Below, one piece after another: positions 52,969 through 61,907 of a DNA stretch of 64,000 nucleotides. Every line of letters starts with the position of its first letter. Within the stretch, counting starts at the first letter, position 1. The notes under the pieces were generated by a model, which made no database searches, was not told the DNA's origin, and was given only the letters and a program-made list of their open reading frames with translations. The stretch comes from Eubacteriales bacterium (GTDB lineage: Bacteria; Bacillota; Clostridia; Peptostreptococcales; Anaerovoracaceae): contig JAQYMQ010000021.1 in assembly GCA_028872475.1 (NCBI GenBank), positions 1 to 64,000 of the forward strand. Reading direction: 5' to 3'. The position numbers and the translations under genes are program-made.

Positions 52969-55182
52969 GTGGATAAATACAGGGGAAGTTTTTCAAAAAT
53001 AATATTTCACAATGAGAGTAACGGATATACAGTTGCTATTTTTGAGACCGACGAAGAATATTTTACTGCTGTTGGCACTCTTTATAATATTGCAGAGGGA
53101 GATAATTATATTATTTCAGGGACGTTTATTCAGAATAAACAGTATGGTGAACAGTTTAAAATTGATGAAATTGAGGAATGTTTGCCGACGACTGTTGATG
53201 AAATTGAACGATTTTTAGCGTCAGGAATAATTAAAGGTATTGGAGCTAAAAAAGCTAAAGATATTGTTAAGATGTTTGCCGAGAGATCTCTCGAGGTTAT
53301 AGAAAATATACCGGAAGCTCTTATTCAAATTCCAGGAATAGGAGAAAAAACAGCAATTAGCATATCAGAGAGTTACAGAGAGAAGAGGGTTATTAAAAAT
53401 CTAGTTGTTTTTTTACAAAATTATGGAATTGAAGCTAGATATGCTGGTCGTATTTATGACATATACGAAGAGGATGCTGAAAAAATAATTGCAGAAAATC
53501 CGTATCAGCTTATGAGAGATATTGCAAGTTTTGGATTTAAAAAAGCAGATAGTATTGCGATGAAGCTTGGCATTGAACGAGACAGTAGTTTTAGGGTTAA
53601 AAGTGCTATAGAATATATATTGAGCAAGTCTTTTAACGAAGGACATTGTTATGTATTAGAAGAAGAACTAATTTTGCAGACAATAGATTTAATTGAAGCG
53701 GATAGAGAAGCGATAGATGATGCGATATTAGATTTGATTGTTGAAGGAATTATTTTCGTTGATAAGATTAATAATCAAAGATGTGTGTATTTGTCATATG
53801 TATTTGATGCAGAGGTAAGAATATCAAAGAGTCTTTGGCAGATAAATAATATAGCAATTAAACCGTTAGGATATAAAATAGAAAATCTTATAAAACAGAT
53901 AGAAGTTAACGGTAGTATAAGCTATTCGCAGGAGCAAAAAAATGCAATTATGCATACTTTGCAGAATAAAGTATCTGTTATAACGGGTGGTCCAGGAACA
54001 GGGAAAACGACAATACTAAAAGCTATATTAGATATTTTGGATATTGAAGAAGTTCCATATGATATTGCAGCACCTACGGGAAGGGCGGCAAAGAGAATTG
54101 CAGAGACGACTGGTAGACAGGCAGTTACAATACATAGATTGTTGAATTATCATAGATCTATGGATGATGGAAAGATGCATTTTGGCAAGAATGAGAATGA
54201 GCAACTAGAATCGGACGTAATTATTGTTGATGAGGCATCTATGATAGATATTATTCTCATGGATGCATTGCTTAAGGCAATTCCTATTGAGGCAAGACTT
54301 ATAATGGTTGGCGACGTGGAGCAACTTCCACCTGTGAGTGCTGGGAATATTCTTATGGATATTATAGAGAGTGAAACGGTCAATGTGCAAAAATTGACAG
54401 AAATATTTAGACAAGCTTCTGAAAGCAATATTGTTGTAAATGCACACCGAATAAATAATGGAGAGATGCCTACAAAAAACGTTGTAGATGGGAACTTTTT
54501 CTTTATGGAAAAAACTTCGGACTCAATAACATCTACTATTATTGATCTATGTAATAAAAGATTGCCTCAACATTATGGGCTAGAAAGCCCTTTAACCGAT
54601 ATACAAATCTTGTCGCCAATGAAGAAACGAACAGCGGGAACGATTGAACTGAACCAAAGACTGCAAGAAATACTGAATCCAACTGAAGAATATAAAGCGG
54701 AAAAAAAGATAGGCAGTAAGGTTTATAGAGAAGGCGATAAGATTATTCAGACGAGAAACAACTATAGTATTACATGGATTGATATCAATACTTTGGAATC
54801 GGGAGATGGAGTTTTTAACGGCGAAATTGGTTTCGTTGACGGCTTTGATGAAGATGGTAATATGATTGTTATCTTCGATGAGAGTAGAAGAGTTATCTTT
54901 TCTGATGTAGACCTAGATGATCTGGAGCTTGCTTATGCGATTACAGTACATAAGGCACAGGGTAGTGAGTTTAATGTCGTGATTATAGCGTTGAAAAAAG
55001 GGATACCAGATATACTTGCAAATAGAAATTTACTCTATACAGCGGTAACACGAGGTAAGAATTTAGTTGTTGTGGTTGGGGATAGGCAACAACTGGAGGT
55101 TATGATAAAAAATAAAAATATGGTGAAAAGAAATTCCGCGTTAGCTATTCGTTTAAAGAGATTTATTGAAAACACAAACTAA
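52969..55182 (+). CDS. recD2: ATP-dependent RecD-like helicase RecD2
   Basis: HhH region, GGPGTGKTTILKAIL, VDEASMID, AYAITVHKAQGSEF; GTG start at 52969. Confidence 0.94.
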   Translation: MDKYRGSFSKIIFHNESNGYTVAIFETDEEYFTAVGTLYNIAEGDNYIISGTFIQNKQYGEQFKIDEIEECLPTTVDEIERFLASGIIKGIGAKKAKDIVKMFAERSLEVIENIPEALIQIPGIGEKTAISISESYREKRVIKNLVVFLQNYGIEARYAGRIYDIYEEDAEKIIAENPYQLMRDIASFGFKKADSIAMKLGIERDSSFRVKSAIEYILSKSFNEGHCYVLEEELILQTIDLIEADREAIDDAILDLIVEGIIFVDKINNQRCVYLSYVFDAEVRISKSLWQINNIAIKPLGYKIENLIKQIEVNGSISYSQEQKNAIMHTLQNKVSVITGGPGTGKTTILKAILDILDIEEVPYDIAAPTGRAAKRIAETTGRQAVTIHRLLNYHRSMDDGKMHFGKNENEQLESDVIIVDEASMIDIILMDALLKAIPIEARLIMVGDVEQLPPVSAGNILMDIIESETVNVQKLTEIFRQASESNIVVNAHRINNGEMPTKNVVDGNFFFMEKTSDSITSTIIDLCNKRLPQHYGLESPLTDIQILSPMKKRTAGTIELNQRLQEILNPTEEYKAEKKIGSKVYREGDKIIQTRNNYSITWIDINTLESGDGVFNGEIGFVDGFDEDGNMIVIFDESRRVIFSDVDLDDLELAYAITVHKAQGSEFNVVIIALKKGIPDILANRNLLYTAVTRGKNLVVVVGDRQQLEVMIKNKNMVKRNSALAIRLKRFIENTN

Positions 55183-55996
55183 AATATCAAAAAACAAATA
55201 TAAAAATATTAATAATATTAAGAAAATAGTTAAAGCAACAGTAATAAAAATAATAAATTTAATATATCCAAAAGATGATTACTGTATTTGTTGCGACAGC
55301 TTTATCAATAGCGAAAGCAAATATCATATATGCGACAGTTGTATAAGGAAGCTTCAGTGGATAAATAATGTGTTATGTGAAAAATGTGGGAAAATGCTCG
55401 ACGATGAGATAACTGGGGAGATACTTTGTTACGACTGTCAAGAAAATATGAGAAGTTTTGATAAAGCGTATACATGTACGAGATATGGTCTTTACGAAAG
55501 AATCTTAATTAGTAGATTTAAAGAACATAAAAAGTCGTATATTGCCGAAAGTTTGGCTACAATAATGTATGACCGAATTTGTTTAGAATACAGTAGTTCC
55601 GACAGCACAAAGAAAGCTTATGATGTAGTAATACCAATACCTATACATAAAAATAAATATAAAAAAAGAGGATTTAATCAATCTGAAAATATTGCTAAAG
55701 TTTTAGCTGAAAAATTAGGGGTTTTATATGATAAAAACTTACTAAAGAGAGAGATTGAAACTCGTTCAATGAAAAGCCTTTCGAGTGAAGAACGCAAAAG
55801 GAATATTAAAAATGCTTTTATTATAGAAACCTATAATAAAAATTTGATAAAATATAATAAAGTTTTATTAGTTGATGATATTTACACGACGGGCGCAACG
55901 TTAAATGAAGCGAGCAGAGTGTTAAAAGAAGCTGGCGTAAGAGAGGTGTATGCAATTACATTTTCGGCAGGAGCTAATAGAATTCCTATAAATTAG
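55166..55996 (+). CDS. comFC: ComF family phosphoribosyltransferase-like protein
   Basis: Zinc-finger CICCDSFI..CDSCIRKL..CEKCGKML..CYDCQ; KRGFNQSENIAK; VLLVDDIYTTGATL. Confidence 0.92.
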   Translation: MKTQTKISKNKYKNINNIKKIVKATVIKIINLIYPKDDYCICCDSFINSESKYHICDSCIRKLQWINNVLCEKCGKMLDDEITGEILCYDCQENMRSFDKAYTCTRYGLYERILISRFKEHKKSYIAESLATIMYDRICLEYSSSDSTKKAYDVVIPIPIHKNKYKKRGFNQSENIAKVLAEKLGVLYDKNLLKREIETRSMKSLSSEERKRNIKNAFIIETYNKNLIKYNKVLLVDDIYTTGATLNEASRVLKEAGVREVYAITFSAGANRIPIN

Positions 55997-56003
55997 TTTA
56001 CAT

Positions 56004-56160
56004 GGTTGTTTGAGTCTGTGGTTGCAAGGCCAAGCCAGTTGCGGGCAAAGGGTCCCACGTAAGTCAGCATTGCTGATGATCATGGCGTAGCTTAGAAGTA
56101 AGTCCTTAGATGAAGAGTCAAGGCGGGTGTGGGGGCAAAGACCAGGTCAGTCAAACAACT
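56004..56160 (+). ncRNA. raiA-motif structured RNA (candidate)
   Basis: GC-richer block in an AT-rich intergenic region between comF and raiA/hpf; closing stem GTTGTTTGA 56005-56013 / TCAAACAAC 56151-56159; internal hairpin TCAGCAttGCTGA 56064-56076; CCCAC 56054-56058 / GTGGG 56129-56133. Confidence 0.8.
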
Positions 56161-56237
56161 ATTGTATATAGTTACAGCTAACTGTTATAATATGGTTATA
56201 ATAGCTATAGTTCTATGATCGACAAGGAGGTAGCGGT

Positions 56238-56771
56238 ATGAAAGTTATTATTAGTAGCAAGAATGTTAAAACTAATGATTATCTAAAGGATATTATCGAG
56301 AAGAAGTTAGAGAAACTTGATAAGTATTTTTCAGATGATATTACAGCTAAGGTTATGCTTTCTGCCGAGAGTAAGGCTGAAAAAATGGAAGTTACTATTA
56401 GAGTAACAGGTCACGTATTTAGAGCAGAAGGTAAGGCAGACAAAATTTATAACTGTGTAGATAAGGTTGTAGATAAGTTGGCTATACAAATGTCAAAATT
56501 TAAAAATAAATTGACAAATAAAAAGGGTGGCGATGCAATTAAGTTTGAAGAATGGCCAGAATTACCATTAGCAAAAGATGAATCTTACGAATTAAAGATT
56601 GTTAAAGATAAACAATTCCACTTAGATCCATTAACAATTGAAGATGCAATTATTAAGATGGAACTTGTGGATCACAATTTCTATATATTCTTAAATAGTG
56701 ATACAAAAGATGTAAACGTAGTTTATAAAAGAGACGACGGAGATTATGGTCTCATAGAAACAAAATATTAA
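56238..56771 (+). CDS. hpf: Ribosome hibernation promoting factor (long HPF/RaiA)
   Basis: VIISSKNVKTNDYLKDIIEKKLEKLDKYF; C-terminal domain DAIIKMELVDHNFYIFLNSDT. Confidence 0.96.
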   Translation: MKVIISSKNVKTNDYLKDIIEKKLEKLDKYFSDDITAKVMLSAESKAEKMEVTIRVTGHVFRAEGKADKIYNCVDKVVDKLAIQMSKFKNKLTNKKGGDAIKFEEWPELPLAKDESYELKIVKDKQFHLDPLTIEDAIIKMELVDHNFYIFLNSDTKDVNVVYKRDDGDYGLIETKY

Positions 56772-56891: not shown

Positions 56892-57743
56892 ATGAAAGAT
56901 TTTTTTGCAAATATACTTTCGGACATCGGGCTTAATGACTTAGTTGATATACTTGTTGTTGCCTTCCTAGTTTATAAGATAATGGGATTTATACAACAGA
57001 GTAGGGCAGAGCAACTAGTTAAAGGTTTGATTGCAATTTTAATTGTTACAGGTTTAGCTGACATTTTAAACCTGTATACTTTGAGTTGGATTTTAAAAAG
57101 CAGTTTAGCGCTAGGAGTTGTTGCTTTGGTAATTGTTTTCCAGCCAGAGTTAAGAAGAGGACTTGAAACGATTGGTAGAAGTAATTTGTTAAAGAGGAAT
57201 TTTGCTCAAGTTGTGAGTGATAAACAAGAAGAATTTGCTTCAACAATAGCTTTGAGTTTGACAAGTTTAGCGAAAACAAAAACGGGTGCATTGGTCGTTA
57301 TAGAGAAAAATACAGCCCTCAGTGATATATGTCAGACCGGAGTTTATATAGATGCGGTAATTACACCTGAGTTGTTAGGAAATATATTTTATGAAAAATC
57401 ACCATTACATGATGGAGCTATTATAATCAGAAATGAAAGAATTCATAGTGCGGGTTGTGTGCTTCCATTGACATCAAATATGGATTTACCAAAAGAGCTT
57501 GGAACAAGACATAGAGCAGGTATTGGGATTACGGAATATTCTGATGCAATTACATTTATAGTTTCAGAAGAAACTGGAATTATTTCGTGTGCTAAAAATG
57601 GTTTCTTGACAAGAAATGTGACAGGTAAGGATATTGAACAGGTTATTGTGGATACATTTGATAATAATAAATCAAAAGGCTTCCTGGGAGGACTGACTTC
57701 TAATTTTAAAAAGAATGGAGGCGCGGCAAATGTGGACAAATAA
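56892..57743 (+). CDS. cdaA: Diadenylate cyclase CdaA
   Basis: DAC motifs LHDGAIIIRNERIHSAGCVLPL, LGTRHRAGIGITE; N-terminal TMs. Confidence 0.96.
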   Translation: MKDFFANILSDIGLNDLVDILVVAFLVYKIMGFIQQSRAEQLVKGLIAILIVTGLADILNLYTLSWILKSSLALGVVALVIVFQPELRRGLETIGRSNLLKRNFAQVVSDKQEEFASTIALSLTSLAKTKTGALVVIEKNTALSDICQTGVYIDAVITPELLGNIFYEKSPLHDGAIIIRNERIHSAGCVLPLTSNMDLPKELGTRHRAGIGITEYSDAITFIVSEETGIISCAKNGFLTRNVTGKDIEQVIVDTFDNNKSKGFLGGLTSNFKKNGGAANVDK

Positions 57744-58710
57744 GAAAGTGAGAATGCTTGTAGCGTTTATTGTTGCTATTAGCGTATGGATTTATGTTAA
57801 GGGTTTGGTAGATCCAGCTATAAGTAAAAACATTGATAATGTGGATATTAACATAAAAAATCAAACTTCGCTTATGGAAAGAAATCTCGGGATAGATTCT
57901 GTTGATATTAAGACAATTAATGTAAGGGTAAGTGGAACAAGATCAAATATTAGTGACTTGCAACCAGACGAAGTAAAGGCGACGGCAGATGTTGCATCAG
58001 CAGTTAGAGGAGAGAATTCTATATATGTAGAGGTAAAGGCGCCAAATAACGTAAACGTTAGAGAACAATCAGTGAAAAGGATTAATGTGAACGTAGCCCG
58101 CCTGCAAAAGAAAGAAATGAAATTTAGTGTTAGCGGAAAAAAACCACTGGAAAAAAATACAACTATTATTGCAGAGGGTGAAGGCAAAAATGTTGTTTTA
58201 CTGGGAACTGCGAATAATCTTGCTAAAGTAAAGAGAGTGGAAGCTAGGGTAGATAACTCAAAATTGACAGAAAAGAGTAAGGTGTTACAAGCAGATTTGG
58301 TTGCAATAGATGAAAATGGTAAAATAGTTGATTATGTATATTTTGAAGAAAATACAGTCGAGATATTAGCTAAGATTGTTTCTGAGAAGAAGGTAGAGGT
58401 GCATGTTCCAACAACAGGAAAAGTAGCAGAAGGATATAAAATTGAATCTATAGAAATCCCTAAGGATGTAGTAATAGTTGGTAATGCAAAAGTTTTGGAA
58501 AAGATAGTGTCTATAGAGGCAAAAGAGATAAATATAGATAATTTAAACGCTACTACGACAATAAAGATAGAAATTAAATTGCCACAAGATGTTGAATTAA
58601 AATATAATACATTGTTGACAGTTAAGGTAAATATTGTTAAGGATATACCGAAGATAGTTCAGGAAGAAAATACTAACGAAAAAGAAAATAAAGAACAGAA
58701 AGAGAATTAA
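57715..58710 (+). CDS. cdaR: CdaR/YbbR-domain protein
   Basis: N-terminal TM, YbbR-like repeats, between cdaA and glmM. Confidence 0.92.
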   Translation: MEARQMWTNKKVRMLVAFIVAISVWIYVKGLVDPAISKNIDNVDINIKNQTSLMERNLGIDSVDIKTINVRVSGTRSNISDLQPDEVKATADVASAVRGENSIYVEVKAPNNVNVREQSVKRINVNVARLQKKEMKFSVSGKKPLEKNTTIIAEGEGKNVVLLGTANNLAKVKRVEARVDNSKLTEKSKVLQADLVAIDENGKIVDYVYFEENTVEILAKIVSEKKVEVHVPTTGKVAEGYKIESIEIPKDVVIVGNAKVLEKIVSIEAKEINIDNLNATTTIKIEIKLPQDVELKYNTLLTVKVNIVKDIPKIVQEENTNEKENKEQKEN

Positions 58711-58711
58711 T

Positions 58712-60067
58712 ATGGGTAGATTATTTGGCACAGATGGAGTGCGTGGTGTTGCAAATAGTGAATTAACAGCAGCTTTAGCATATAGGCTTGGTCAGGCAGG
58801 AGCTCATGTTTTATCACAAAATAAAAAAGAAAGGCCGAGATTTTTAATCGGAATGGATACACGTATTTCTGGAGATATGCTTGAAAACTCTATAGCTTCA
58901 GGCATATTGTCGGTTGGGGGTGATGTTGTAAAGGTTGGGGTGTTGCCAACACCGGCTATTGCATTTTTGGTTAAACATTATAATGCAGATGCTGGAGTAG
59001 TAATATCAGCGTCACATAATCCATATGAATATAATGGCATAAAGTTTTTTAATGGAGATGGTTTTAAATTAGATGATACAATTGAGGAACAAATTGAAGA
59101 TATAATCTTGATGCATCAAGATGTTCATAGTGAAGTTACGCACGACAAGATTGGAAAATGCCTTGAGGCAGATGATAATGCTTTAGAGATGTATGTAGAT
59201 TTTTTAGCATCTACAGTGGATTATGATTTAAAAGGTCGTAAAATAGTTCTAGATTGTGCCAATGGAGCCGCTTATAAGGTTGCAGAAAAAGTTTATGAGA
59301 GACTAGGCGCGAATGTAGTTATTATTGGTAACCAGCCAAATGGCATCAATATAAACGATGGATGTGGTTCTACAGATACTAAAAAGTTACAGGAAACTGT
59401 TGTAAGTGAAGGAGCTTTTGTTGGATTAGCCTTTGATGGTGATGCAGATAGACTTATTGCGGTGGATGAGCTGGGGAGAATAATAGATGGCGATAAAATA
59501 ATGTGTATCTGTGCTAAAATGCTTAAAGAAGAAGGCGAATTAGGAAACGATATTGTTACAGGAACAGTAATGAGTAATATTGGGTTCCATAAGTATTTAG
59601 AGAATATTGGTTGTACAACGAGGGCGACTAATGTTGGAGATAGATATGTTTTAGAGGATATGTTACAGACAGGTAGTGTGCTTGGTGGTGAACAGTCAGG
59701 TCATATGATTTTCTTGAATCATACAACTACAGGTGATGGTGTGCTTTCATCTTTACAGGTGGTTAGAGCTATTATTAGATCTGGCGAAAAAGCTTCTGTA
59801 ATGTCAGATAGCATAAAGATTTATCCTCAGGTATTAAAAAATGCTCTTGTAAAAAATGAAAATAAGAAGACATATATGAATAATGAGGAAGTTGCAAAGG
59901 AAATTGAAAAACTGGAACTAATACTTGAGGAAAAAGGTGGGAGACTGCTGATTAGACCTTCTGGAACAGAACCTCTTGTTAGAGTTATGATCGAAGGTGA
60001 AGATATAGAAGATATTACAAGGCTGGCAGAAGAGATGGCTGTAATTCTTACAAAAAAATTAGGTTAG
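58712..60067 (+). CDS. glmM: Phosphoglucosamine mutase
   Basis: GRLFGTDGVRGVAN, VISASHNPYEYNGIKFF. Confidence 0.97.
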   Translation: MGRLFGTDGVRGVANSELTAALAYRLGQAGAHVLSQNKKERPRFLIGMDTRISGDMLENSIASGILSVGGDVVKVGVLPTPAIAFLVKHYNADAGVVISASHNPYEYNGIKFFNGDGFKLDDTIEEQIEDIILMHQDVHSEVTHDKIGKCLEADDNALEMYVDFLASTVDYDLKGRKIVLDCANGAAYKVAEKVYERLGANVVIIGNQPNGININDGCGSTDTKKLQETVVSEGAFVGLAFDGDADRLIAVDELGRIIDGDKIMCICAKMLKEEGELGNDIVTGTVMSNIGFHKYLENIGCTTRATNVGDRYVLEDMLQTGSVLGGEQSGHMIFLNHTTTGDGVLSSLQVVRAIIRSGEKASVMSDSIKIYPQVLKNALVKNENKKTYMNNEEVAKEIEKLELILEEKGGRLLIRPSGTEPLVRVMIEGEDIEDITRLAEEMAVILTKKLG

Positions 60068-60077
60068 GAGATTTACT

Positions 60078-61907
60078 ATGTGTGGAATCGTAGGATATGT
60101 TGGCAGCAAAAATGCTAAAGAAAAAATAATATCAGGGTTAAAAAGTCTTGAATATAGAGGCTATGACTCTGCCGGTATAGCAATTCCTATTAATGGTAGT
60201 GTAGATGTAAGAAAGTGTGTTGGTGGAATTGATAATTTAGAGAAGATTATTGATGATATAAATTATGATGGTGCAGTAGGTATCGGACATACTAGATGGG
60301 CAACTCATGGAGCGCCATCTGTTATTAATGCACATCCACATATCAATGCAAGTGGTGATATTGCTGTAGTACACAATGGCATAATTGAAAATTATACAGA
60401 GATTAAAGAATGGCTTGTTGATAGCTATGGTATTGAATTTAAATCTGAAACAGATACAGAAGTAATTGCACATTTGATAGGCGTTTATTATGATGGAGAT
60501 TTACATGAAGCTGTAAATAGAGCAGTAAAGAAGATGCGTGGTGCCTATGCAATAGCAGCAATAGCAGCAAATGAACCAGATAAGATCGTTGCAGTAAGAA
60601 AGGATGCGCCTCTAGTTGCAGGGCTTGGAAAAGGCTTTAATTTTGTAGCTTCTGATATTCCGGCAGTACTTAAATATGTTAGGGAAATCTATCTGATTGA
60701 AAATAATGAAACCTTAGTAATTACTAAGGATGACGTTAAGATATTTGATAAAGACGGTAAAACGGTAAAAAGAGATGTTTTCCATGTAACATGGGATGTT
60801 GATGCAGCTGAAAAGGGTGGATATGAACATTTTATGATTAAGGAAATTCATGAACAGCCAGATGGAATAAAGGATACGTTGAATAAAAGGGTTGATAAAG
60901 ACGGCAACATTATGCTAGATGATATAAAACTAACTGCGGAAGATGTTGCTGGATTTAATAGAGTATATATTGTAGCTTGTGGAACTGCTTATCATGCAGG
61001 ATTGATTGGTAAATATACTATAGAAAAGTTTGCGGGTATTCCAGTAGAAGTTGATGTGGCATCAGAGTTTAGATATAGGGATCCTTTTGTGGACGATAAG
61101 ACCTTATTTATTGCCATTAGTCAATCGGGAGAAACTTTAGATACACTTGCAGCTTTAAGAGAAGCTAAATCAAAGGGTGCTAGAATTTTATCAGTAGTAA
61201 ATGTTGTGGGAAGCTCCGTTGCTAGAGAATCAGATGATGTATTTTATACTTGGGCAGGTCCGGAAATTTCTGTGGCATCTACAAAGGCTTATACGACTCA
61301 GCTAGCTTGTATGTATTTACTAAGTCTATATATTGGGAAATTGAATGGTCATATCAGTGATAATTATTATAATGAGATAATCGATGCGCTAAGAGATATT
61401 CCAGAGAAGGTTCAAGAGATACTAGATAGAAAGAGTGTTGTTGAAAAGCTAGCAAATACTTTTTACAAGAAAGAAAAAATATTTTTCGTAGGAAGAGGTA
61501 CTGATACAGTAGCATCAAAAGAAGGTTCTTTGAAATTAAAAGAAATTTCGTATATAAATTCTTTTGCTATTGCGGCAGGAGAATTGAAGCATGGAACTAT
61601 TGCATTGATTGACGAGGAAACTTTACTCTTCGCACTTGCTACACAGGATAGACTTTTTGAGAAGATGGTGTCTAATGTAGAAGAAATTAAGGCTAGGGGA
61701 GCTAGGGTTATAGCTATTGCTAAGGAAGGCAATGAACAGATTGCAGAAAAGTCAGATGAGGTAATATTTATACCTCAAGCTATTGACGAAGTAATGCCAC
61801 TTCTCGCAATTGTTCCTTTACAGTTATTTGCATATTATGTTTCAAAAAATAGAGGTTGTAATGTAGATAAGCCAAAAAACTTAGCAAAGTCTGTTACGGT
61901 GGAGTAG
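60078..61907 (+). CDS. glmS: Glutamine-fructose-6-phosphate aminotransferase
   Basis: MCGIVGYVG, HTRWATHGAPS, C-terminal KPKNLAKSVTVE. Confidence 0.97.
   Translation: MCGIVGYVGSKNAKEKIISGLKSLEYRGYDSAGIAIPINGSVDVRKCVGGIDNLEKIIDDINYDGAVGIGHTRWATHGAPSVINAHPHINASGDIAVVHNGIIENYTEIKEWLVDSYGIEFKSETDTEVIAHLIGVYYDGDLHEAVNRAVKKMRGAYAIAAIAANEPDKIVAVRKDAPLVAGLGKGFNFVASDIPAVLKYVREIYLIENNETLVITKDDVKIFDKDGKTVKRDVFHVTWDVDAAEKGGYEHFMIKEIHEQPDGIKDTLNKRVDKDGNIMLDDIKLTAEDVAGFNRVYIVACGTAYHAGLIGKYTIEKFAGIPVEVDVASEFRYRDPFVDDKTLFIAISQSGETLDTLAALREAKSKGARILSVVNVVGSSVARESDDVFYTWAGPEISVASTKAYTTQLACMYLLSLYIGKLNGHISDNYYNEIIDALRDIPEKVQEILDRKSVVEKLANTFYKKEKIFFVGRGTDTVASKEGSLKLKEISYINSFAIAAGELKHGTIALIDEETLLFALATQDRLFEKMVSNVEEIKARGARVIAIAKEGNEQIAEKSDEVIFIPQAIDEVMPLLAIVPLQLFAYYVSKNRGCNVDKPKNLAKSVTVE

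Follow-up and report, generated by a model that had tools for sequence, protein, structure and literature searches.

The 155-nt element between comF and hpf in the window, which is the whole 64-kb stretch of DNA analysed, is a genuine and ordinary member of the raiA (ModT) family of noncoding RNAs, in a short form that has already been published. It is best read, on comparison with related genomes, as a separate trans-acting RNA and not as a leader of hpf. The complete reading is a compact and independent variant 1 RNA that would act in trans and have its core function outside Spo0A and c-di-GMP, and we give it a probability of roughly 0.78. More than 2,500 species are reported to carry raiA RNA.

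The main addition of this analysis is a constraint on the function of raiA RNA, namely a host genus that appears to be free of both spores and c-di-GMP. Its conservation in small and nearly complete genomes without detectable GGDEF, EAL, Spo0A or SpoIVA sets the core role apart from those pathways. With only 155 nt and neither P7 nor P8, the RNA also provides a minimal molecule in a minimal host for the search for its partners.

Identity and fold of the RNA

A cmscan comparison of the entire window with Rfam 15 gave RF03072 as the only match at gathering level, with 130.6 bits (cut-off 101.3 bits, E = 7e-32) over the full model (1-209). A preliminary description had proposed a raiA-motif RNA at this place and had named the Rfam model and compensatory changes in the stems of homologues as checks; the first of these upholds the proposal. 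No open reading frame of at least 60 amino acids overlaps the RNA. The block is richer in GC, as had been described, with 0.516 versus 0.288 in comF, 0.294 in hpf and 0.321 in the window, and only 0.014% of 155-nt segments across the 64 kb reach its value. The RNA has a single copy in the host genome (1.29 Mb, 23 contigs, 99% complete) and is present in 51 of 61 genomes (the host genome and 60 relatives). One relative has a second, partial match beside its intact copy (G027:C90:2515-2603; 37.6 bits, model positions 31-177).

The minimum free energy of the block is not significant (z = -0.83), as it takes no account of pseudoknots or non-canonical pairs, and was dropped as evidence. The evidence for the RNA is the covariance-model match together with covariation; folding energy alone gives no separation.

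The cryo-EM topology in PMC11751092 was moved onto the window RNA by sequence, with P1a, P1b, P1c, P3a, P3b, P4, P5, P6 and the pseudoknots pk-1 and pk-2:

56005-56159, + strand: raiA-motif (ModT) noncoding RNA, variant 1, 155 nt (RF03072)
56005-56013, + strand: closing stem P1a, 5' arm GTTGTTTGA, pairs with 56151-56159; two-sided changes at 9 of 9 pairs in 30 relatives
56016-56022, + strand: 5' arm of P1b/P1c, pairs with 56148-56150 and 56141-56144
56028-56031, + strand: 5' arm of P3a, pairs with 56051-56054; 100% paired in 30 relatives, two-sided change at 2 pairs
56034-56046, + strand: P3b hairpin, stem 56034-36/56044-46; 100% paired
56037-56043, + strand: pk-1, 5' half AGUUGCG, 7 pairs with 56086-56092, of which 5 covary
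56055-56058, + strand: 5' arm of P4, pairs with 56129-56132
56063-56077, + strand: P5 hairpin; four basal pairs counted, 3 with two-sided changes, 93.3% paired
56083-56084, + strand: pk-2, 5' half UG, partner of the CA at 56136-56137; a single two-sided change, pairing kept in 98.3%
56086-56092, + strand: pk-1, 3' half CGUAGCU, in the pk-loop
56104-56123, + strand: P6 stem-loop, 20 nt, replacing the P6-P7-P8 domain; predicted stem, model domain skipped in the Rfam alignment
56129-56132, + strand: 3' arm of P4, partner of 56055-56058
56136-56137, + strand: pk-2, 3' half CA, in J4-1c
56141-56150, + strand: 3' arms of P1c and P1b, with a bulge at 56145-56147
56151-56159, + strand: closing stem P1a, 3' arm TCAAACAAC; covariation of P1a in 30 relatives

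Among 30 sequences of the host's family, 96.7% of the cells at these 43 pairs, both pseudoknots included, hold standard pairs. The compensatory changes looked for in homologues were found, with changes on both sides at 24 of the 43 pairs. The covariation score is 0.413 versus 0.174 after shuffling (reached in 0 of 500 shuffles) and at most 0.095 when partners are slid; sliding by 1-3 columns lowers pairing to 31-44%. A mixed set that includes full-length RNAs is paired to 99.3%. Pairing within P1, P3, P4 and P5 is 93-100% per helix and covariation is seen in P1, P3a and P5, while P4 is uninformative in this respect because it is invariant in the 30 sequences. The second pair of P3a is G-U in the window and U-A in most relatives. 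All nine pairs of pk-1 (7) and pk-2 (2) form in the window RNA. The block of the preliminary description is real and its closing stem lies at 56005-56013/56151-56159; each of the two ends given for the block (56004 and 56160) was off by one. The RNA folds into a P1/P3/P4-P5 core held by pk-1 and pk-2, as shown by the comparison made here and, for a full-length relative, by cryo-EM.

The raiA RNA of Clostridium acetobutylicum (RF03072; PDB 9CXF, 9ELY) has P1a-c, P3a/b, P4, P5, the seven pairs of pk-1 and the two of pk-2 in common with the window RNA. Also shared are the discontinuous GNRA turn (numbered G20-C21-A22-A134 in the window RNA), the extruded A57-A58 and the position between comF and hpf. 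The window RNA differs in having a 20-nt hairpin instead of the P6-P7-P8 domain, and the contact of the P8 E-loop on pk-1 is therefore missing. The core and pseudoknots are likewise the same in the RNAs from other families of the order (L012, L013, L017-L030).

Position between comF and hpf

The domain content of both neighbours confirms the described location between comF and hpf, and the distance of 78 nt from the end of the RNA to the hpf ATG was also correct. The features around the RNA are:

55166-55996, + strand: comF/comFC (PF18912, DZR_2; PF00156, Pribosyltran)
55986-55991, + strand: TATAAA, a weak -10-like match within the end of comF that may be the promoter of the RNA; only 6 of 8 positions, not above chance in the window (p 0.66)
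56183-56191, + strand: extended -10 TGTTATAAT, predicted separate promoter of hpf; 8 of 8 positions
56224-56230, + strand: AAGGAGG, Shine-Dalgarno of hpf, read from the sequence
56238-56771, + strand: hpf, long form, 177 aa (PF02482 and PF16321, S30AE N- and C-terminal domains)

The window has the usual context of raiA RNA, with comFC upstream and hpf downstream, for which PMC11706538 cites general frequencies of 74% (comFC) and 66% (raiA/hpf). The host's family widely retains the order RecD2-ComF-RNA-Hpf-CdaA-YbbR-GlmM. Downstream of hpf the window carries cdaA (c-di-AMP cyclase), ybbR, glmM and glmS (56892-61907), and the order RNA-hpf-cdaA-ybbR-glmM in many relatives places the RNA beside genes of c-di-AMP synthesis.

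The gap between RNA and hpf varies from 27 to 749 nt across relatives, and 24 of 36 such gaps hold an extended -10 that matches TGnTATAAT at 7 or 8 of 8 positions, versus 8.3 expected by shuffling. Several genomes have the RNA without an adjacent hpf, and G020, G035 and G039 have hpf on another contig. The long-Hpf domain is present in 57 of the 61 genomes, some of them with no detected raiA RNA, and no raiA RNA was found near hpf in ten more distant Hpf relatives. The preliminary description had left open whether the element is a separate RNA or a leader; the predicted hpf promoter, the variable gap and the unlinked copies favour a separate RNA, and it would be a gene distinct from hpf.

In the host genus the RNA might be processed from a comF-RNA-hpf transcript without a promoter of its own and still act in trans. 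Such processing is possible because the promoter in the window is unconvincing and no intrinsic terminator follows the RNA in the genus, and the RNA starts only 9 nt after the comF stop. Against it, -10 elements lie just upstream of the RNA in 18 of 50 relatives versus 4.7 expected, and a P1 extension with a U-run terminator directly follows the RNA in several relatives (L031, L041, L061). We consider processing unlikely, though it is the best placed of the alternatives.

The sequence directly 3' of the RNA, TATTGTATATA (56160-56170), is near-identical in the four members of the genus (CTATT-TATATA is invariant) while the rest of the gap has diverged. Its counterpart in L042 could pair with an upstream TATAATA as an extension of P1, a pairing that is lost in the window. 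In L042, L043 and L044 a TATAAT-like box abuts the start of the RNA; if this box is a promoter, transcription would start inside P1a, which makes either P1a or the promoter assignment questionable in these genomes.

The raiA RNA of C. acetobutylicum reportedly acts in trans. According to PMC11706538, ModT of Clostridioides difficile is abundant and stable and works in trans, mutants are restored by complementation in trans, and deletion delays the growth transition and raises the levels of tRNA and 5S RNA. By analogy, the window RNA may time the exit from growth through action in trans, probably as part of a protein complex.

An RNA of this kind might also process precursors of tRNA or rRNA as a trans-acting ribozyme, a role raised in PMC11751092 and offered as speculation in PMC11706538. 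A rigid and highly conserved fold and the tRNA and 5S changes in the deletion mutant would suit such an enzyme, but neither PMC11751092 nor the available part of PMC11706538 reports catalytic activity, and we find it improbable. Still weaker is a cis-regulatory leader or riboswitch that senses a ligand and controls hpf. The RNA does share the strand of hpf and precede it by 78 nt, the two adjoin in most of the host's family and the Rfam type of RF03072 is Cis-reg; riboswitch. This reading was rejected because no expression platform was found, the stretch of the window from the RNA to hpf having no terminator-like hairpin, and because of the separate predicted promoter, the variable spacing, the RNAs unlinked to hpf and the rescue in trans of mutants elsewhere (PMC11706538); we regard it as very improbable.

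Sporulation, c-di-GMP and possible function

All four genomes of the host genus (98-99% complete) carry raiA RNA, and Spo0A, SpoIVA, GGDEF, EAL and the c-di-GMP-I riboswitch were detected in none of the four. Each search gave matches in other relatives and thus works, and as the genomes are draft assemblies the absence of the genes is strong but not absolute. C. difficile, in contrast, sporulates and makes c-di-GMP, and deletion of ModT reduces sporulation there via the diguanylate cyclase DccA and c-di-GMP (PMC11706538). These published effects cannot be the core function of the RNA in the host genus. Because the genus keeps the RNA without the detectable genes, the core function would either precede both pathways or be separate from them, and action in the host would not proceed via Spo0A or c-di-GMP synthesis.

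A wider comparison covered 192 genomes of the class that are at least 95% complete. The RNA is carried by 43 of them, of which 13 lack Spo0A, 9 lack GGDEF and 7 lack both. Spo0A was found in 30/43 RNA-bearing versus 128/149 other genomes (Fisher p 0.02, a negative association) and GGDEF in 34/43 versus 118/149 (p 1.0), p values that are descriptive only because species are not independent. Sporulation and c-di-GMP were rejected as positive partners of raiA RNA on this cross-tabulation. Its presence in non-sporulating bacteria has been noted before (PMC11706538), while hosts free of c-di-GMP were not seen discussed in the available part of that paper.

Our preferred guess, a tentative one, is that raiA RNA might control translation capacity or the turnover of stable RNA (tRNA and 5S) during growth arrest, which would fit both the neighbouring hpf and the higher tRNA and 5S RNA levels reported in the C. 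difficile deletion mutant. It is possible, with similar reserve, that such tuning is the core function and that effects on sporulation, toxin and c-di-GMP are downstream consequences in particular hosts.

The short form and its distribution

The window RNA belongs to variant 1, in which P6 is a small hairpin and P7 and P8 are missing. The P6-P8 region of the Rfam model has no counterpart in its alignment to the window RNA, and alignment with full-length RNAs leaves one block absent from the window RNA at the same place. ModT of C. difficile is of the same family and its action in trans is known, but it has about 51 nt of P7/P8 that the window RNA lacks and is not adjoined by hpf (PMC11706538). 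The short form is a known one because PMC11751092 already defines variant 1, which makes up 32% of raiA sequences versus 68% for variant 2 with P6-P7-P8. The preliminary description, sound on the family, passed over the short P6 variant and did not cover the absence of detectable c-di-GMP and sporulation genes in the host.

Short or intermediate RNAs are found in 32 of 35 RNA-bearing genomes of the host's family, with 155-185 nt in all but one that is cut by a contig end. Long RNAs of 201-218 nt are found in the remaining G018, G019 and G032 and in all those detected in other families of the order, where L012, L013 and L017-L030 have the full P6-P8 and score 168-190 bits, versus about 110-144 bits in most of the host's family. 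On the Hpf tree the long form needs a single label change, with modest branch support (89/60), and this is consistent with one switch between the forms. That the short RNA is a decaying remnant of the full-length form, as 155 nt versus 205 nt in a small genome might suggest, is hardly credible, since the core nucleotides, both pseudoknots and the compensatory pairs are kept throughout the host's family, where the short form is the major one, and it accounts for almost a third of published raiA RNAs.

Length also varies in the other direction. In one other family (f44) the raiA RNAs span 339-348 nt, about 135 nt above the usual length (G092:C1:1787174-1787512, G135:C39:37909-38256, G187:C74:5181-5525 and G219:C49:7450-7792), and the extra length is probably an enlarged variable domain.
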